Assembly: GCA_947184155.2 (NCBI GenBank) | Contig: CAMXCT020001786.1 | Coordinates: 26,959 to 90,958, forward strand | Reading direction: 5' to 3' | Length of the DNA: 64,000 nt | DNA from: Cladocopium goreaui | Lineage: Eukaryota > Sar > Dinophyceae > Suessiales > Symbiodiniaceae | In this document: one piece after another, positions 1,204-47,440 of the stretch | Numbering within the stretch: the stretch's first letter is position 1 | How the letters are laid out: each line of letters begins with the position of its first letter | Position numbers and translations under genes: made by a program | Notes under the pieces: generated by a model | Seen by the model: only the letters and a program-made list of their open reading frames with translations | What the model was told of the DNA's origin: nothing | Databases searched by the model: none

Positions 1204-1392
1204 TGTGAATCTAGGGCCAGTGAATCGACACGTCAACTCATTTACATTCACAATTCAATCGACTGCTGTGTGCAGCGTGGGTGCGGCCCAAGCGGGCCCT
1301 GTGCTACTGGGCGAAGCGTAGCAAAACAGCAGAGGTGCGCTGTTTGCTAGTTGACGTAGGTTGGTGCTGCCACTGCAGTTTGTCGCTCTGCA
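1204..1392 (+). repeat. 5' LTR of the copia element
   Basis: 189 bp, TG...CA, read as identical to 10579-10767. It should carry the element promoter and the start of the transcript. I see no clear TATA box. Confidence 0.93.
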
Positions 1393-1393
1393 G

Positions 1394-1405
1394 TGGTAGC
1401 GGAGC
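1394..1405 (+). promoter_or_regulatory. Primer-binding site (initiator-Met tRNA-like)
   Basis: TGGTAGCGGAGC begins two bases after the LTR. It resembles the complement of the 3' end of eukaryotic initiator tRNA-Met (TGGTA.C.GAG), the usual copia primer. The tRNA identity is inferred, since the host tRNA is not in the window. Confidence 0.7.
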
Positions 1406-1434
1406 ACAAGCTCCTACCTTTGGGTGTTAGAGCC

Positions 1435-2632
1435 ATGGCGGCTCGTGTGCCGTCGTCGCACGGCAGTCTTGACGGTGATCCTGCTGAAGGAGGTGAAGGT
1501 TTCAGACAACCGGCTGCACCGACAGTGGAGCCGGAGGATGACCCGTTTGACTCTGACGAGTTTCGGGAGTTCCTGAGAGAACGTCGGTTACGAGGAGGTC
1601 GACGAGCCGAAGTGGGAGCAGTTCATGCCCGACCTGTTGGGCGATCGGCGAGACGACCAGAGGATGATAGCGATGATGACCGTCCCAACCGTGGAGGTGG
1701 CGCCGGACAACCACCAGAATGGGATGGGGTGAGCCAGACCTTTCAGGATTGGCTCATCAAGTGCAAGCTTTGGCTGGCGACAACCAAAGCAAAACCCAGG
1801 ACACAGGGCCCCCTGATTCTCCAGAGACTCTCAGGGGCACCTTTCCAGGCCTTCAAACACTGGGCCAAGGATGCGGCGTGGCTGAACAATGAGAATGGAG
1901 GTTCAGCCCTTCTTGAAGCCATGAATCTACCTGAGAACTTTGGTGAAGATCGAGAAGAAGATCTCTTAGCCTCGCTTTCCAAGATCACGTATCACATGAA
2001 GCGAGGGAAAGATGAGTCCTTGAGGGGATTTTGGTCAAGATGGGAAGAAGCCTTACGGAAGATCCGAGAGCACCAGGTGATCCTCCCGGACAAGTACATC
2101 GGGTTTCTTCTTATTCAAGCTCTTGGACTTGGAGATGCTGACATCAAGAGCCTACTCTCATTCACTCGGGGGTCGATCATCTCGAGTGAGGAGTGAGGTC
2201 AGAGAGTGGGCAAGGAAACACGAGATGAAGCTGATGGCGAAGGATGTCGGCACAGAGAAGGATCGGAAAGGGACTTCTGCCTCGACGAGATCTACGGCGG
2301 GGCACTACTTCATTGAGGATGAGCACGCGGCGGAGGAGATCAACTTGATGGAGGACGCGCTGAACGAGCTCTACTCCGAGGACGCTGAGTATGAGGAGGT
2401 TGACTCGTCCCAGGTGCCCGAGGACGAGATTCTCGACGAGCACGAAGTGGCAGAGGTGCTGAACACCATGATCCAACGCAAGAAGACATTCGTCCAAAGC
2501 GCAAAGATCAAAAAGGCCAAGGAGCTTGCACGTGGGTACGGGAACTGGAAGAAAACTCCAGCCGGGTCTTCGGCCAGCTCTGGGGGGACAAGCCAAATGT
2601 CTGTTACCGGACGCTTGAAAGGTGGCAACTAA
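1435..2632 (+). pseudogene. Copia gag (capsid region), frameshifted
   Basis: The start is ATG at 1435 in a good context (GAGCCATGG). The protein opens acidic and arginine-rich, then has a capsid-like core (WLIKCKLWLATTK, about 1750-1790; LGLGDADIKSLL, about 2125-2160) typical of copia gag. Frame 1 stops at a TGA just after 2195. Homologous-looking sequence resumes in frame 2 (VREWARKHEMKL). A 4-nt tandem duplication around GAGTGAGGAGTGAG explains the shift. The second frame then reads an acidic segment to a TAA at 2630-2632, which lies at the left end of the nested insertion. The ancestral gag very likely ran on into the zinc knuckle beyond 3495. Confidence 0.85.
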
Positions 2633-3494
2633 TCCCTTCCTCCTAATACTAAACGTCCCCCTAATACTAAAAACAGGCATCCATCTCCAATTTCCGAAAA
2701 TTTCAGTTTGGCCAATTTGACTTTTAATTGATCCCCTTTAAAAAACAATTTAAAAATCAACCTACCATTTGTGGGTTCTCCCCCCTAATACTAAAAACTA
2801 GTTCACCCCGGGGTGTTTAGTATTAGGGGGGCCTAGTCCCAATCCCTCACTCCAAGCTGCCTGGCTACTCTAGCAATTAGGGGTAAGCTTCGAACTGCCA
2901 TTTTTGGCAATATTTTAATTGCGTTATATAAGGAAATTTAATTGATTTTGAGATCGGAAAAAATAGTTTTTAGTATTAAGGGTTTTAATTTAGTATTAGG
3001 GGTAAGCTTCGAACTGCCATTTTTGGCAATATTTTAATTGCGTTATATAAGGAAATTTAATTGATTTTGAGATCGGAAAAAATAGTTTTTAGTATTAAGG
3101 GTTTTAATTTAGTATTAGGGGTAAGCTTCGAACTGCCATTTTTGGCAATATTTTAATTGCGTTATATAAGGAAATTTAATTGATTTTGAGATCGGAAAAA
3201 ATAGTTTTTAGTATTAAGGGTTTTAATTTAGTATTAGGGGTAAGCTTCGAACTGCCATTTTTGGCAATATTTTAATTGCGTTATATAAGGAAATTTAATT
3301 GATTTTGAGATCGGAAAAAATGGTTTTTATTATTAAGGGTTTTAATTTAGTATTAGGGGTAAGCTTCGAACTGCCATTTTTGGCAATATTTTGGTTCCCT
3401 AATAATAAATACCCCCCTAATACTAAAAACTACCTGCCGTGTTTTGTATTAGGGGGGGGAGGGGGGGGGGTTTAGTATTAGGAGGAAGGGATTA
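2629..3494. mobile_element. Nested TIR insertion (MITE-like) inside gag
   Basis: About 866 bp bounded by perfect 25-bp terminal inverted repeats (2630-2654 and 3470-3494). CAA on both sides is a possible 3-bp target duplication. The ends are packed with repeats of CCTAATACTAAAAAC and its complement. It has no coding capacity, so it must rely on another element's transposase. Removing 869 nt joins gag to the zinc knuckle in frame. An alternative reading as an intron-forming element is given under findings. Confidence 0.8.
2884..3390 (+). repeat. 119-bp tandem repeat, about 4.3 copies
   Basis: The unit starting TAAGCTTCGAACTGCC recurs at 2884, 3003, 3122, 3241 and 3360, exactly 119 bp apart, and the last copy is partial. 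Copies are nearly identical, so amplification was recent. Each unit holds a small palindrome (TGCC-ATTTTT-GGCA). Confidence 0.93.
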
Positions 3495-3495
3495 C

Positions 3496-4495
3496 AAGAT
3501 GTCTTTGGAGGCTCTGAAGGCTACCAGCCGCTGCTCGAAATGTGGACAAGTTGGACACTGGCACAAGGATCCCCAGTGCCCAAAGAACCAAGGCCGAAAG
3601 ACCACCCAGGAGGCCCACTACATGGAGAAGGACAGCCAGCCTACGGACACCGAGGAGGCGATTTTCTGCGGCTTCATGGAAAAGGAGGTCGAGAAGCAGG
3701 ATCACTACGACCTGGTTGAGCCCTACGTTGACTTCGCTGGTGATGAACTACGACTTCCTCCTGCAGATCGTCTACTGAGTGATTTGAGCTCTCACGAGCC
3801 ATCGACCGCACCCGCGACCAATGCAACGGCTTCCAATTCGGAAGATCGTCTTTTTGGATTTGAACCGGCCGATATCGGCGCATACATGTCCGACAGCCCA
3901 CTGACGGAAGGTTTTGGTTGTGATTTAGGTGTTGGTTTGGGGGTTGGTTTGAAAGCTGTGAACCGTGAAATCTTTTGGAGTGAGGGAGTTGGAAATCCCG
4001 GTAACCCGAAACCCCATGAAGACCTCTGTGGGACTATTGACACCGGATGTCAAAGGATGGCAATAGGTTTGGCCACTTTGAGGAGACTTCAATCAGCTAT
4101 GCCGAATGACATGGAGATTGGGACCATCAAACAGGAATATCGTTTCAAGTCGGTTCATGGGACATCCAGTACAACACATGTGGCAACTATTCCGACTAGC
4201 TTGGGGAGACGGGGAAGTATTCTGAAACCGGCTATTTTTACTGGTGACCATTCTGAACAAGCTCCATTTCTGATTTCTCTACCATTTCTCATGGCATGCC
4301 GAACCGTCCTGCACCTAGATCCTAGTCGTGGCCTTAGAGCGTATTTCAAGAAATTTGGGTTCTCAGTTGATCTTCATATCGGACCAACAGGAGCACTCAG
4401 AATCCCTCTCACGAATTTCACGTCGAAACAATTGAAACATCTTAGAGAAACTCAAGCGGAAGTTTTGCAGAGCCAAGCCGAGTTTGAAGTGTTGA
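3496..4495 (+). pseudogene. Copia zinc knuckle and aspartic protease
   Basis: Frame 1. A retroviral-type knuckle CSKCGQVGHWHKDPQC lies at about 3532-3579, with six residues between the His and the last Cys instead of the usual four. An acidic spacer follows, then the protease signature GTIDTGC at about 4031-4050 (catalytic Asp in DTG) and a hydrophobic region to about 4450. The frame is lost near 4495, where an A-run (TTGAAAACC) has probably gained one A. Sequence resumes in frame 2 as KPQLLAETRV. Confidence 0.85.
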
Positions 4496-5494
4496 AAACC
4501 ACAGCTTTTGGCCGAGACTCGAGTGACCCCGGCGCCTGCGGTGCTAACTCCGTTGAATCTGCAGCCCATGGAGAGCAACAAGCGTGTGCGTACCGAGCCA
4601 CCGGAGTGGAGCACACCCGGAGGAGCTTGGTCCAGAATGGTGCTCAAGCTGCTGTTCCTCATGACCCGCATGAGCACTCTTCTGATCGGACTACTTCTTG
4701 GCCGAGACCTTCGTGGCCCCGAGGAGATGACCAACCAGGAGATGAGGGAGCGCAAGAAGCAACCATTCAGTGTATGGCCTCTCACAAAGAAGCTCGAGGG
4801 CACGCTGTCAGAAGTAGCGGAATCGGACTGTGGATTCAGCATGGTGTCCAACAGCCCGTCGAGGGTTTCGAGCACTCCATCCCCACTGGCTCTGGACATC
4901 GACTACTACATGGACCAGAATGTGGAGGGGAAGCACCCGGTCTGCGAGCACGACGAGATCTGCGATCTATGGATGTGCCGGAAGCAAGGGAGGAACTTCC
5001 AACGGATGTTCTGGCGGTGCCCACTCCCGATCGGGCGCCAGTGCCAGATGTTCCAGTGGTGCGCCCATCAGCCTCACTGGGAGGGACCGAACCAGGCGAT
5101 TCAAGCCGGACGCAGCCCCAAGCCCATGGAGAAATCCCCCTCGACGAGCGCCTCTCGACCTCCCAAGCCGCCGACGACGCGAACTTCCAGCAGCCCGGTG
5201 GCTCCAACGACCCCATCTGGAGAGGAGGAGACGGAGATTCAGGCCCAGTGCAATCATCTGGGTCCCAAGTGTCGACAGGGAACCAACGGCTTCAGGGAGA
5301 AGGTGTCGTGCATGCAGTGTGGCAAGGTCTTGGTGGATCGAGCACGCAGCAAGCAGGAGATGGAAGAGCGTGCGGAGATTCGCAAGGAAAAGAAGGCCAG
5401 CGGAAGTGCGTCGACGAGCTCTCCGGGATCAAAGGAGAAGGGGGATGCAACCGACATGGAGGAGTTCCTGGAATTCCAGAAGTTCCGCGAGTGA
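4496..5494 (+). pseudogene. Copia pol spacer with GRF-type zinc finger
   Basis: Frame 2. After a variable linker, a GRF-like finger lies at about 4945-5065: Cys pairs around CDLWMCRKQGRNFQ and CQMFQW, with the GR.F and C..F.W signature of nucleic-acid-binding zf-GRF domains. A Pro/Ser/Thr-rich linker follows, then a second Cys/His-rich segment (CNHLGPKCRQG, SCMQCGKV; about 5248-5330). The frame ends at TGA 5492-5494 (EFQKFRE stop). Downstream homology is in frame 3, so another shift lies between about 5490 and 5560. Confidence 0.75.
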
Positions 5495-5559
5495 CGTCGC
5501 CAGCAGAAGAAGCCGGATGGTCCGAGCTGAGTCCAGAAGAAGAAGACTGGGCATCAAAT

Positions 5560-6440
5560 CCAATGTTGAGCAAATCTGCCAAGCGCGCCTGCTTTCAGGC
5601 CCGACTATGTGGAAGGAACTTATGAATTTGCTCCGTACAGCGCCGACTGAAGTCCAGTCAGCGGGATTAGAAAAGCTCAGGAATTCAGCCTTCAGACATG
5701 GCCAATCGGCGGTGTCCAACAAAAAGGCATTGTCGCTTTATGCTACCCTTCTCGACCGAGATGAAAAGTCAACCAGAGTTGTGGCCGAGCTGTATAATCC
5801 AGAGAGGTTCAAGGGAGAGGCAAAAAGACAAGGTTTGATTCCAGGACAGGCTTTTGACCTGGACTTAGGACATGATTTGTTGGACCCTCACATGCGTAAC
5901 GAGGTTAGGAGTTATGTCAGAACTGTTAAACCCGGACTTGTCCTGATTTCACCCCCCTGCAAATGGCACTCCATCCTTCAAAACTTAAGACCCTTTGCTG
6001 ACCGATCCCCGGAAAAACAACAGGAGTACTTGCGTAACCTGATTCAAGCTAAGGTGTTACTTAGGTTCGGAGTTGAAATTGCTAAGGAAGTGGCCAGTTA
6101 TGGTGGCTACTTTGTCTTCGAACACCCTGTCACATCTAAGGCATGGTCCGACCGAGTTCTACAACAACTGATGATGCGAGAGGACGTGGTCCTTGCCAAG
6201 GGCGACCAATGCATGTTCGGACTGCAATCCAAAACTGGAGTTCCGAGAAGGAAGTCTACAGGATGGTGCACTAACTCCAGCGAGATTGCGGAGATGCTGA
6301 CGGTCAAATGCGATGGCACTCACGAGCACGACATGATCATTGGCAAGGACGGCTCCGAGAACAAGTCCACACAGGCGCAAAGATATCCTGCAGGATTGGT
6401 CCAGGCCATTATCAAGGGCTACAAGAAACAGATTCGAGAG
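5560..6440 (+). pseudogene. Cytosine-methyltransferase-like domain inside copia pol
   Basis: Frame 3, uninterrupted. Between protease and integrase lies a domain with the landmarks of C5-cytosine methyltransferases: a beta-strand then ISPPCKWHS (about 5947-5973; PPC holds the catalytic Cys in that family), FVFEHP (about 6112-6129; position of the ENV Glu motif), VPRRKSTGW (about 6240-6267; position of the RxR motif), and a C-terminal helix RYPAGLVQAIIKGYK. A clear SAM-binding motif I is not obvious (candidate AFDLDLGHDLL, about 5850-5880). Capture of DNA methyltransferases by dinoflagellate retrotransposons is known from the literature. Whether this domain is active, or only a relative with another role, cannot be judged here. 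Confidence 0.6.
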
Positions 6441-6699
6441 GAACTCTTGCGTGTTGAGTTCTGCCGGATTGACCATCTTCTTCAAGATTGTCTCCATCTT
6501 CAGCGGATCCAGAATGAGTTGGTCCCAACCGAGCACCTCATCTCTGACTTTGACATCATGACAGCCGAGCACGAGACCGATGAGGAGCACGAGGATTCCA
6601 AGAATGACGAGATGCCTGACGATGAGGAGATCTCGGAGGAGCCGGAGACGGTTGAGGAGCCGGGAGGAGAGACAGAGGGAGCAGAGAACCCGAAATACA

Positions 6700-7216
6700 C
6701 GTATCTTCCGAGAGAACGACCGTTCTCCCTGCCCCAGCTGGTCAAGCGAGCTCATGATGGACTTGGGCATCCTGCTAACGATCGATTGGTCCGGATTCTC
6801 CGACATGCCGGTGCTAGTCAAGAGGCGATCAGGCTGGCCCGAGAACACAAGTGCGCTGTTTGCGCAAGGCATGAGAAGGTCAAACCACCCCGACCGGCCG
6901 CACCACCTAGAAACTGGCAGGTCAACCAGGTGGTCGGAGTGGACACTGTTTGGCTACCCACTCTGGGTAAGAAAACCAAGATGGCGCTCAACATCGTTGA
7001 CTGGGCCTCCAGGTTCCAGATGGTGATCCCTTTACAAAGCCATACACCAGCCGCAGCTCGAAAGGCCTACTTACAATGGCTCAGATTATTCGGACCACCT
7101 GAACGAGTCTACGTTGATTTGGGCACCGAGTTCAAGGGCACTTTCATGTTTGGCAGCGAGGTGGATTCAACGTACTATGAGCCCGCTTCACTGGAGATGC
7201 CAACTCAGAGGGGCCG
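6700..7216 (+). pseudogene. Copia integrase, N-terminal part
   Basis: Frame 3. An HHCC zinc-binding module (HDGLGHP ... CAVC, about 6750-6870) precedes the catalytic core: first Asp in VVGVDTVW (about 6930-6955), second Asp in VYVDLGTEFKG (about 7110-7140). The frame is lost near 7216, just before the expected catalytic Glu. That Glu appears in frame 2 as ITERAGKAF. A 5-nt insertion around GGGCCGGGC would explain it. Confidence 0.85.
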
Positions 7217-10200
7217 GGCATCACGGAACGAGCAGGCAAGGCTTTCAAAGAGGTTTTCTCTCGAGCGTTGGAGCACCACACTTGCAGCGATGAGTCGGAG
7301 TGGCACAACTTGGTCGACATTACGATGATGACCTGCAATCGACTGATGAACAAGTCTGGATACAGCCCAATCCAGAGGGTGCTTGGATATTCCCCTCGAG
7401 TTCCCGGAGGACTACTGACCGGTGGTGGAGGAGACTTAGCAACTTTGGGGAAACTCAGTGCAGGAGACCTTGCCATCCAGAATGCGCAGGACATGCGACT
7501 CGCTGCGGCGCGAGCATTCCATGAGGCTGATTGCTCTCAATCCTTGCGCAATGCTCTACATGCTGGACCTCGACCTCGACGAGAATTCGAAGCGGGCCAA
7601 CTGGTATATTTCTGGCGAAAGGGGATGGAACGAGCGCTCAAGGACAAGCCAATGTTTTGGCGTGGGCCAGCAAGGGTGATCCTCACCGCCATGCCGACTA
7701 CGGTCTGGATATCCTATAGGGGCTGTATTGTCAAGGCCGCTCCAGAACACCTTCGACACGCCAACGACGAGGAGCAGCTTTCACTCTCGGGATGGATCGA
7801 CGACATCACCAAGACGAAGGAGGAGATCGAACAACAACCAAGGCGAGGATACGTCGACCTGACCCTGGAGGAGATCCCCAATGAGGAGGAACGACAACAA
7901 GCTCTCCCGGATCCAGAGGCTCCCCGACTTCGACTACGACAGAAAACCGCCGCGGACAAGGTGGTCAAGAGAAGCTCACCGGACGAATGGAGATACAATC
8001 CGGCTACTGGTGAATTGATCCGAATCCACTACAACCTCAGAAGAGCCAAGTTCAGACCGACCGAAGAGCTGGCAGGTTGCCCCGTACGCCTTGAGGAGAT
8101 TGACAATTGGAGGAAATCGGTCATGAAAACTCCAGATGGCCTGATGATGGATGAGGAAGAAGATGAATGGAATGGAGATGGGCCGGAACCGGATACCCTG
8201 GAGGATTGGGTTGGACGAACCTATTTTCGCCTGAAGGAGAACGTAGAAGGAGCAGCCCCAGAGTTCGAACGCATCGTTCGGCCCAGAACGGACGAACCAG
8301 CGGATCGGGCAGGAATGAACGAAGAGGTAGAAGGGGGGAACGAGATAGCTCCGGAACAAGAGGATACCCAAGTGGCTACCGGCGGGGAGGACGCAGATAC
8401 CAGAGCTTCAGAATCAAGGACAAGATCCCTGCCGGAAGAGGAGGACACAGAGGATCGACCTTCAAAGAGGATGAGAACAGAATTTTTGGAGGTATATTTA
8501 CAATCCCTGGAGAAGGCCATGATTGCAAAGCTCAAGAAGGAGGTTAGCTATAAGAACATGACTGCCGAGCTGAAGACCAAGTTCGACAAGGCCATCAAAC
8601 GGGAGGTGCAGAACAACATCGACTCGGGAGCATATGAGATCCTGGACAGATCTGAGTCGGAACACATTCGACGTACAAAGCCGGACAAGATAGTCCAGTC
8701 CCGATATGTCCTGACTGAGAAGGGAATCGAAGCCGAGGATGTTGAGAAGGCCGAGTTTGAAGGAGTACTGATCTCCAAGGAAGGAGATTCCAGCAAGAAG
8801 GCAAAAGCCCGACATGTGATGAAGGGATTCAGCGAAGAGAACTCGGAGTACTTAGAGGTGACTACCCCGCAAGTGGGACGAGAGACGGTCCTATTCACCC
8901 TGCAGCTATTGGCCAGCCTCAAGTGGATGCCTGGCTACCTTGACTTCACCCAGGCGTTCCATTCAGGAGACGAACTCCAGAGGGAAATATATGCAGAACT
9001 TCCTCATGAAGGACTTCCCGGATGCCATCCGAGACAACTTCTACGACTACGAAAGTGCTGTTATGGACTCCTTGATGGTCCCTTTCAATGGTTCAGTCAT
9101 TTGCAACGGATCTTGGTTCAGGAGCTGGGATATGAAGCAAGCACTACGGATCCCTGCCTATTTCTCCTGTTTGGAGAAAACCGGAGGTTACGAGGAATCA
9201 TCTCTGTTGCCACCGATGACCTACTACATGGAGGAGATCAACTACACTGGGAGAAGATGCAATGGTTAAACAAAAACTACAAGCTCGGGAAGTTCAGTCA
9301 AGGAGATGGCAGGTTCGTTGGCAAGGAGATCAAGATGCAGGAGGACGGCGGCATTCTCATACACCAACCGCTGTATACGAAGGAGAAGGTCAAAGAAATT
9401 CCTATCTCTCGAGATCGGAAGAGCCGGAAGTTCACCCTATGCAACAAGGAGGAGATCACACAACTTCGAGGACTTCTGGGATCACTTGCATGGTTGAGTA
9501 AGGAAACGAGGCCGGACTTGGCAGGTAGAACAGCGTTGCTCCAACAGAGCATGCCACAGCCCTACATCCAGGACCTCTTGGACGCGAACGCTTTGGCGAG
9601 AGAAGCTTTGCGGTCCCCATCGACCGGGATCCGGATCCAGCCCATACCACCTGAACGACTTAGGGTTGGTACCATCACCGATGCGTCCTGGGGTAACGTC
9701 AAGCCTGACTTCCACGACGAGGAGGACAAGGACTACTGGCTGGAGACAGCCAGCAGCTGGATCAGAGTGCATCGACAACCTCGTCGACTGAAATTCCACC
9801 CTGGTGCTGCTCCCGGAGGACCTGATCTCTACGAGATACAGAACCACCGAGTGACGGAGTCCGACGATACGCAGCACACCGACCAATGGAACCATCGAGA
9901 CAGTCAACTTCCAATTGGTGATCAGCCCTGGCGGGGTCGCACGACATTCTACAAGAAGAAGGCCGAAGCAGGTAAGAAGGAGGTGATCAATGAGAAGTTT
10001 TTACAGAATCAACGACTCGCGAGCCAAGGAGGATATATCACCTTCTTCTATGATTCGCAGATGGAAGTGGAGGAGGCCGCATTCCCAATTTCAATTATCA
10101 CTTGGAAGAGCTACAAGGTCAAGCGGTGCACGGTGAATACTTTGTCTGCGGAGTGCCAGGCGATGATTCAAGGAGTCGGATCACTTCATTGGATCCGCGC

Positions 10201-10567
10201 CCTTTTGGAGGAGAGCAGAGGAACTATACTACGACTGGAAGACTGGGAACAACAAATAGCTTCCACTCCCTTCATTGCCATCACCGACTCCAAGAGCCTG
10301 TACGACACGGTGTCGAAATGTCGCAACACGGCTTCACATATTAGTGACAAAAGGACTGCAATTGATGTCACTATCCTCAAATCTGATTTCAAGAAAACCC
10401 AGGGTCAAATTAGATGGGTGGAGGGTAGCCGAATGGTTTCTGATTCTCTTACGAAAAAGATGAGCGGTTCGTTTTTGAGGTCTGTCATGGAAAAAGGTCA
10501 GTGGTCGCTGTCGGAAAGAGGGTTCCAAACACAGGAATCCACAATCCTTTTAGTGTCGATTCAATAG
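7217..10567 (+). pseudogene. Copia integrase C-part, reverse transcriptase and RNase H
   Basis: Frame 2, open for about 1100 codons to TAG at 10565-10567. It starts with the integrase Glu region and GYSPIQRVLGYSPR, followed by a basic and acidic linker. Reverse transcriptase: SRYVLTEKG, the Asp of motif A in LDFTQAFHSGD (about 8938-8970), and motif C as VATDDLLHGG (about 9206-9235), where copia elements usually have YVDD or xVDD. RNase H: TDASW (about 9677), AECQA (about 10150), ITDSKSLYD (about 10282) and a late Asp in DKRTAIDV. This 3' half is unbroken. Confidence 0.93.
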
Positions 10568-10574
10568 AGAGTGG
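10566..10574 (+). promoter_or_regulatory. Weak polypurine tract before the 3' LTR
   Basis: AGAGAGTGG lies four bases before the 3' LTR. It is the only purine run in the expected place, and it is short for a plus-strand primer. Confidence 0.45.
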
Positions 10575-10578
10575 CCGA

Positions 10579-10767
10579 TGTGAATCTAGGGCCAGTGAAT
10601 CGACACGTCAACTCATTTACATTCACAATTCAATCGACTGCTGTGTGCAGCGTGGGTGCGGCCCAAGCGGGCCCTGTGCTACTGGGCGAAGCGTAGCAAA
10701 ACAGCAGAGGTGCGCTGTTTGCTAGTTGACGTAGGTTGGTGCTGCCACTGCAGTTTGTCGCTCTGCA
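10579..10767 (+). repeat. 3' LTR of the copia element
   Basis: 189 bp, TG...CA, apparently identical to the 5' LTR. It is followed by the GTTTC target duplication at 10768-10772. Confidence 0.93.
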
Positions 10768-11195
10768 GTTTCATTTAGGTCTTCTTTAGGGTTTCATTTA
10801 GGGTTTCTTTTGGATGTCGTTTTTGGCTTCTTTGGGATGTCATTTAGGGTCTCTTTAAGGTTTCATTAAGGGTTTCTTTAGGGTTTCATTTAGGGTTTCT
10901 TTAGGGTGTCGTTTTTGGCTTCTTTGGGATGTCATTTAGGGTCTCTTTAAGGTTTCATTTAGGGTTTCTTTAGGGTTTCTTTAGGGTTTAATTTAGGGTT
11001 TCTTTAGGGTTTCATTTAGGGTTTCTTTAAGGTTTCTTTTAGGGTTTCATTTAGGGTTTCTTTAGGGTGTCACTTCGGTTTTCTTTTAGGGTTTCATTTC
11101 GGGTGTCGTTTACGGTTTCTTTAGGGTTTCTTTTAAGGTTTATTTGAAGGTTTCTTTAGGGTGTTGTTTAGGGTTTCTTTAGGTTTTCTTATTGA
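10768..11195 (+). repeat. Interstitial telomere-like minisatellite, right half
   Basis: It begins with the second GTTTC target-duplication copy and continues the TTTAGGG-type phrases of the left half. Its variants include TTTGGGATGTCATTTAGGG. It fades out near 11195. Confidence 0.85.
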
Positions 11196-43976: not shown

Positions 43977-44618
43977 CTAGGAATACAACTTCTTCAGTTT
44001 CTGGAACTTCGCCATCGCCTCGTTCTGCCTGACGACGCATGCCTGGTCTCCATCGGGCCACTGATAGCCAAGACCACTACAGCATTGCCGCAAGGTTCCG
44101 TCTGGGGGCGCGTAAGCGTGTCCTTTCCCGGCAGCATATGGACTGGGAATGCGGAGGTCCATGTCGTGCAGAATCTTCCCCAATGCTTCCTCGCTTTGGT
44201 TGTTCATATCATAACTCTTCACGCAGCAACGCCAAACTGAACCAGGCCGATATCCTCCAAGGCACACAGTCTGATGCTCGCCAAAGTATCTTCCGCACTT
44301 CTGCGGTTTCTCTTCCTCCGGCTCCTTTTTGCCCAAGTATTTTTGGAATTTCCTGTTGATCAAACCCTTCTTCTTTTTCGGCTCTGGCTTGGTGTAGCAT
44401 GCTTGCCCAAGAGCAAGCTCGCAGGTTGAGGTATTCTGGTCACACACCAAGCCCTCAGCACAGCAATTCTTCTGCTCGTCTGCCTCCCACGGAGGCCATG
44501 ACGTCTCCCCACATCCGGAAGCGCACGGCTCTCCTTGTCCCGGGAGGGCCGGGAGGGAGTTCTGCACACGCCGAGCCGAGGCCATCGAGAGCAGCAATAG
44601 GAAGGAGTGCATTCTCAA
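43977..44618 (-). CDS. Secreted Cys-rich protein, 213 aa, single exon
   Basis: An intact reading frame runs from ATG 44618 to TAG 43977. The N terminus is a classic signal peptide (MRMHSFLLLLSMASA). The mature part has about 14 Cys, including three CC pairs, in the order CASGC, NCC, LVC, TC, AC, then a Lys/Glu-rich insert (KKKKGLINRKFQKYLGKKEP), then C.RYFG, VC, RCC, QCC, AC. The paired Cys and the spacing suggest several small disulphide-bonded modules. I recognise no family. It is probably secreted or at the cell surface. It lacks introns, unlike all its neighbours, and lies on the same strand. It might be a retroposed copy, though I see no spliced-leader relic. Confidence 0.75.
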   Translation of the reverse strand: MRMHSFLLLLSMASARRVQNSLPALPGQGEPCASGCGETSWPPWEADEQKNCCAEGLVCDQNTSTCELALGQACYTKPEPKKKKGLINRKFQKYLGKKEPEEEKPQKCGRYFGEHQTVCLGGYRPGSVWRCCVKSYDMNNQSEEALGKILHDMDLRIPSPYAAGKGHAYAPPDGTLRQCCSGLGYQWPDGDQACVVRQNEAMAKFQKLKKLYS

Positions 44619-44639
44619 ACTGACGGGATCTGACGGCTA

Positions 44640-46979: not shown

Positions 46980-47440
46980 GGGGGGGACCCAGGTATACGA
47001 CTTTGGTTTTGGGATCGGCTTCGGGTTCCGCTTCGCGAACGGTTTGAAACAGTGTTGTTTTTGGTTCGGGGAGGGAAGAGCAGTTGGGACTTCGGGTTCG
47101 GGATCGGCTTCGGGGTCCGCGTCGGGTTCGGCTTCGGGNNNNNNNNNNNNNNNNNNNNNNNNNNNNNNNNNNNNNNNNNNNNNNNNNNNNNNNNNNNNNN
47201 NNNNNNNNNNNNNNNNNNNNNNNNNNNNNNNNNNNNNNCGGGGGGAGGAAGCAGGTAGGACTTCGGGTTCAGGATCGGCTCCTGGTTCGCCTTCGGCTTC
47301 GGCTTCGGGTTCAGCTTCGGGTTCGGGTTCCCGCGCGGTCTTTGCGAAAGGTTTAAGTGTTCTTTTTGGGCGGGGGGGGGGAGCAGGTACGACTTCGGGT
47401 TCGGATGGGGTTCGTTATGCCCTAAAGCCCAAGTTCCAAG
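46980..47440 (+). repeat. TTCGGG / GGCTTCGGGTTC minisatellite interrupted by a gap
   Basis: GC-rich units GGTTCGGGATCGGCTTCG repeat on both sides of the N block and read as Gly-Ser in one frame. A shorter GGTTCGGG patch lies at 45625-45700. Confidence 0.8.
47139..47238. other. Assembly gap, exactly 100 N
   Basis: One hundred N, the usual placeholder for a gap of unknown size, inside a GC-rich minisatellite. The true array may be longer. Confidence 0.99.

Follow-up and report, generated by a model that had tools for sequence, protein, structure and literature searches.

In a 64,000-nucleotide stretch of the Cladocopium goreaui genome assembly (contig CAMXCT020001786.1; hereafter the window) we find a Ty1/copia retrotransposon whose pol polyprotein carries a small domain resembling C5-cytosine methyltransferases. 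Our overall reading, which we hold with evenly balanced confidence, is that this domain belongs to the C5-methyltransferase superfamily, shares ancestry with the small phage family phrog_757 and most likely still acts catalytically on the element's own complementary DNA (cDNA). The established part comprises a predicted C5-methyltransferase fold, relatedness at the level of family profiles, an invariant Cys and Glu, and a place within the polyprotein. C5-methyltransferase ancestry is very probable, and the retention of some catalysis is somewhat more likely than not.

A methyltransferase-like domain within copia pol

A sequence-only reading of this DNA had noted SPPC, FEHP and a basic RR in the order and rough spacing of C5-cytosine methyltransferase motifs IV, VI and VIII, and the three do lie in that order within one frame (Table 1). 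The pattern PPC..E[HNQ][PV]..[RK][RK] at such spacings occurs only once in the window's six frames, at the domain, and in 1 of 20,000 shuffles of the 298-residue domain, a chance figure that is a rough guide only because the pattern was composed after the domain had been seen. Set against seven canonical C5 enzymes, the distance from Glu to Lys is similar (44 versus 40–53), that from Cys to Glu is longer (54 versus 37–47), and that from the motif I acid to Cys is shorter (57 versus 68–86 in the six canonical enzymes with motif I).

Counting the protein of the window itself, searches for relatives gave 7, 19 and 27 hits, and these reduce to 40 distinct proteins (P0002–P0041); the second and third scored 7995 and 7994 candidates, those sharing the most words, and the cluster of the window protein has 45 member sequences. 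The 30 rows of our alignment, A8, are the window sequence plus 29 of these 40. It excludes P0002 (the window's own protein), P0008, P0033, P0034 and P0035 (C-terminal part only) and P0036 to P0041, in which no methyltransferase-like domain was seen on reading; P0041, which carries the name Symbiodinium microadriaticum, was found through its integrase part. Eleven rows were masked where the reading visibly breaks, and two near-duplicate pairs, P0013/P0023 and P0018/P0028, are still included.

All 27 rows that cover the motif IV Cys keep it, also in the variants SPIC (P0005), STPC (P0025, P0026) and APPC (P0016, P0029). The motif VI Glu is likewise invariant (26 of 26), and is followed by His (15 rows), Gln (6), Asn (3), Glu (1) or Lys (1) and then by Pro in 25 of 26. 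Masking leaves both counts unchanged (unmasked, 27 Cys with 3 gaps and 26 Glu with 4 gaps); P0019 leaves frame just before the Glu and so has a gap there, and scored as a miss it makes the Glu count 26 of 27. The residues on which the sequence-only reading had staked its proposal are kept, the Cys without loss in any row that covers it. It had also remarked on the lack of an obvious motif I, which holds for FxGxG; a different motif, [FY]NPxRF, is conserved at that site, with Asn-Pro in 25 of 25 rows. The Asp of FD[LI] after strand 2 is equally constant (25/25), at what we take to be the cofactor-holding position of C5 enzymes. Around motif VIII, Lys 224, Thr 226 and Asn 231 are each found in 21 of 21 rows and Gln occupies position 222 in 5 of 21. 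Cys 210 and Cys 243 (both 21/21), His 249 (20/20) and His 247 (19/20) could form a metal site, special to this branch, in the place of the canonical recognition domain; one Cys and one His from this region are also constant between the phage and copia sequences compared below.

The fold predicted for the domain is that of C5-cytosine methyltransferases (class I, C5-type topology) and not an unrelated one, and the structural rows listed for the model are DNA enzymes. With M.HhaI, M.HaeIII, Dcm, DNMT1 and DNMT3 the domain has in common this predicted fold and the order of PPC and Glu along it. By sequence, the domain is much harder to recognize. PF00145 failed to match the window even with E allowed up to 10, and matched none of 11 relatives, which bears out the earlier suggestion of a distinct branch. 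The window domain had no match in Pfam, NCBIfam or PADLOC; a sequence search of the PDB gave 11 unrelated matches (E 0.77 or worse), and one with A8 gave 4 (E 1.4 or worse).

Probable relationship to small phage methyltransferases

When the 30 rows were scanned against PHROGs, the two families reached by the most rows are both named DNA methyltransferase: phrog_757, matched weakly by 10 rows (best E 2.5e-3; counted at E up to 1, the window row not among them), and phrog_2882, matched by 9 (best 5.3e-4). Eight matched phrog_12600, whose function is not named, and this was the only family found by the window sequence alone (E 0.29). Two canonical proteins reached the same families, L005 matching phrog_757 (0.0036) and L006 phrog_2882 (1.3e-4); L001, L007, both L008 frames and Dam matched neither at E up to 0.01.

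The motif KPTDIWTN was found at at least 120 viral loci, which supplied a phage set. Among 120 frames of this set, 76 have PPC and 111 have EN[PV]; phrog_757 recognizes each of the 4 frames scanned (E 8e-31 or better), PF00145 scores 4 of another 5 tested above its cut-off, and a PDB sequence search with one phage relative was empty at E up to 1. Against an alignment of 98 complete frames, the copia profile reaches a match probability of 93% (E 3.4e-7, 149 columns), with the Cys of the two families aligned to each other and likewise the Glu. The phage family in turn matches the seven canonical C5 enzymes (profile E 1.3e-13). The copia–phage score of 52.7 compares with 24.7 for the best of 60 column shuffles and 12.3 for the reversed control, and it stays at 39.6 (E 4.4e-5) once the KPTDIWTN columns are removed. 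The signal lies in motifs IV–VI (E 5.2e-7), the C-terminal part being weak (5.6e-3). An adenine methyltransferase was considered separately and rejected, Dam scoring 20.7, which is shuffle level for what is a single Dam sequence and not a family profile.

A hidden Markov model of the copia domain, run on 2193 viral frames, gave six matches (E 0.0011 to 0.014), all within the 118 KPTDIWTN frames. In a further control, 39 of 60 phage methyltransferases sampled from the 98 outscore the best of 240 other frames. The three best of these other frames, where the control overlaps, are L025, which Pfam itself identifies as a C5 methylase (33.7 bits), L018, with HPPC and ENP, and L134, a chance KPTGW match. 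L018 (frame at 728) and L025 (1033–1659; over the PF00145 cut-off) are phage frames that resemble C5 methylases and lack KPTDIWTN.

In a single alignment, phrog_757/phrog_2882 and the copia domain share SPPC, E-x-P, a Cys before YG/FG, KPT..N, a His and a C-terminal P..L. Thirteen columns are invariant when 10 phage sequences are set beside 6 from copia, and C136, K144, T146, N151 and H168 are identical in all 16. Most phage frames are 203–230 residues long, which leaves no space for a recognition domain, and the copia domain likewise has none. The two forms differ in that the phage proteins are free-standing and have ELFAGSRS for motif I and, in most cases, ENP for motif VI, whereas the copia form lies inside pol, with E[LIV][FY]NPxRF and mostly EHP; at motif I the E and mostly the R are common to both, and AGS is replaced by NPx.

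That an unrelated, copia-specific domain merely happens to contain SPPC, FEHP and RR is very improbable. Such a chance likeness would fit the want of a Pfam or NCBIfam match and of a meaningful PDB sequence match, but we reject it on the conservation, the predicted fold and the profile match with its controls. Relatives of the copia form itself were not found in one search of viral contigs, and none was confirmed among 73 stretches from another or among 116 stretches from prokaryote genomes. With tblastn in phages, one relative had no match and another hit two records with DNA primase (E 3); KPTGW.TN in viral contigs gave 15 loci, and none of the frames read there is related.

The host element and its reading frames

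The whole long terminal repeat (LTR) element occupies 1204–10767 of the window. Two traits place it in Ty1/copia: identical 189-bp LTRs, TG..CA, with a 5-bp GTTTC duplication on each side, and a weak rve integrase core followed by RVT_2, which downstream of the domain gives the copia order. The polyprotein position given by the sequence-only reading, between protease and integrase, is borne out: the domain is preceded by a weakly scoring CCHC knuckle and by a DTG motif that matches no Pfam protease family. After the 5' LTR comes the primer-binding-like TGGTAGCGGAGC, which presumably resembles initiator tRNA, and we take ITDSKSLYD to be an RNase H-like motif. A degenerate TTTAGGG-like minisatellite with a 23-bp period flanks the element (733–1203 and 10768–11188); with this array on both sides, the element inserted into a telomere-repeat-like array. 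Inside the element, between the gag and CCHC frames, is a tandem array (2876–3392) of 4.3 copies of a 119-bp unit, 99% alike.

Table 1. Features of the copia element, in window coordinates
Feature	Position	Strand	Remarks
5' LTR	1204..1392	+	189 bp, TG..CA; target duplication GTTTC at 1199-1203
CCHC zinc knuckle (gag)	3529..3570	+	Pfam E 0.021, under cut-off
IDTGC, protease-like motif	4036..4050	+	motif only; no Pfam protease match
GRF zinc finger PF06839	4937..5065	+	E 8.7e-7, over cut-off; frame 4496-5494
C5-methyltransferase-like domain core	5778..6437	+	model residues 66-285, translation from 5583
ELYNPERF, site of motif I	5787..5810	+	
SPPC, motif IV	5949..5960	+	catalytic-type Cys 5958-5960
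FEHP, motif VI	6117..6128	+	Glu 6120-6122
DQCMFGL	6204..6224	+	conserved Cys 6210-6212
PRRKSTGWCTN, motif VIII-like	6243..6275	+	RRK 6246-6254; phage-family counterpart KPTDIWTN
CDGTHEH	6309..6329	+	conserved Cys and His; possible metal site
Integrase core (rve)	6921..7136	+	E 2.5e-4, under Pfam cut-off
RVT_2 reverse transcriptase	8789..9400	+	E 2.9e-17
ITDSKSLYD	10280..10306	+	no family match
3' LTR	10579..10767	+	same sequence as 5' LTR; GTTTC duplication 10768-10772

The methyltransferase-like domain lies wholly in one stop-free frame (4818–7328). The frame of the GRF finger upstream is a different one and stops at 5494, and the remaining integrase and the reverse transcriptase downstream are also out of frame with the domain (7181–10567). 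Lesions or sequencing errors of the window copy seem to account for the breaks near 5580 and 7210. In P0022 the GRF finger and the domain are in a single protein, and in each of P0023 to P0027 the domain is followed, on reading, by the integrase part within one protein. Pfam matches there are all under cut-off, to rve in P0024, P0025 and P0026 and to the integrase zinc-binding domain in P0023; in P0027 Pfam gave neither. P0004 and P0009, by contrast, have N-terminal parts that resemble frame three of the window and not the GRF frame.

Elsewhere, the window has a Cys-rich open frame with a signal-like start on the minus strand (43977–44636), unrelated to the element, and an assembly gap of 100 unresolved bases (47139–47238). 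No spliced-leader match and no Rfam match was found in the window.

Possible activity and known retrotransposon methyltransferases

Several observations weigh against a shared ancestry with retained catalysis. The fold assignment comes from one model. Compared directly, the canonical C5 and copia profiles match only at E 0.13, or at E 0.21 with shuffles equally high. The phage set was fetched by a motif that resembles one in the copia domain; the motif I–III half alone, against the phage half, is not significant (E 0.11); and the phage profile fails to pick the window sequence, whether among the 30 rows (4.8 bits) or among window frames (2.8 bits, E 4.4). In the window copy the domain is in another frame than the GRF finger and than the rest of integrase and reverse transcriptase. 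In P0040 a leader like that at window 4568 onward joins the linker before integrase directly and the whole domain is missing, which we attribute to a deleted copy or an assembly fault. Canonical traits are also absent: the motif I glycines have given way to Asn-Pro, ENV to E[HQNEK]P and QxRxR to one invariant Lys, and there is no recognition domain.

These replacements, and the relative that lacks the domain, would suit a pseudo-enzyme, in which methyl transfer was lost and the C5-methyltransferase fold still serves pol for nucleic-acid binding or base flipping. With motif I changed, cofactor binding must indeed differ or be lost. A binding module, however, needs no invariant Cys and Glu, and the Cys–Glu pair speaks for C5 chemistry; moreover, the phage relatives with ELFAGSRS also deviate from FxGxGG, so the copia form is not alone in having a modified motif I. 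We regard a pseudo-enzyme as unlikely, though the strongest of the alternatives.

In DNMT2 the same catalytic motifs act on RNA, and a DNMT2-like action on primer tRNA or genomic RNA inside the particle would draw on this precedent. We consider it improbable: similarity to tRNA enzymes was not found, the structural rows are DNA enzymes, and the GRF finger would point to single-stranded DNA. The GRF finger of APE2 binds single-stranded DNA (PMC9900424). An RNA role has also been proposed for LINE-borne (long interspersed nuclear element) enzymes in PMC5890265, where marking of their own DNA is proposed for DIRS elements. By analogy with the latter, the simplest account would be that the element marks its own cDNA, and it may do so.

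Cytosine methylation of element cDNA, for which we infer cofactor, base, substrate and benefit, is a tentative proposal that we place just short of even. In this scheme the polyprotein would be packaged into a virus-like particle, where the GRF finger would hold single-stranded DNA; the Cys would attack C6 of cytosine, the Glu assisting, and a methyl group would be moved to C5. Integrase would then insert a marked copy that resembles host DNA. A bolder version, which we think doubtful, starts from a mini enzyme of phage type that modifies pyrimidines at C5. A copia lineage that is widespread, probably among dinoflagellates, would have captured it and rebuilt both the cofactor site, now the conserved FNPxRF, and the part that reads the target, now a metal module of Cys and His; with the help of the GRF finger the element would modify its own cDNA, perhaps by a C5 change other than methylation.

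Within the literature searched, and as far as the parts of the papers available to us go, we found no earlier report of a methyltransferase-like domain in a copia polyprotein; the portions of PMC9998398, PMC11453091, PMC6338049 and PMC7245778 that we had do not mention one. PMC5890265, which searched with PF00145, describes DNA methyltransferases (DNMTs) in LINE, DIRS and Gypsy retrotransposons and states that LTR Copia, the most abundant retrotransposons of Symbiodinium, are without any DNMT domain. To the C5-methyltransferase captures described there, the window would add copia as an element type. Like SymbioLINE-Dnmt, SymbioDIRS-Dnmt3 and KnitGypsy-Dnmt3, its element is a case of an algal retrotransposon carrying a C5-methyltransferase fold, here a predicted one, and as in the DIRS and Gypsy elements the domain lies within Pol. 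Whereas those enzymes, as presented in that source, are detected by PF00145 and belong to LINE, DIRS and Gypsy elements, the window domain belongs to copia, is invisible to PF00145 and has a phage-type relative.
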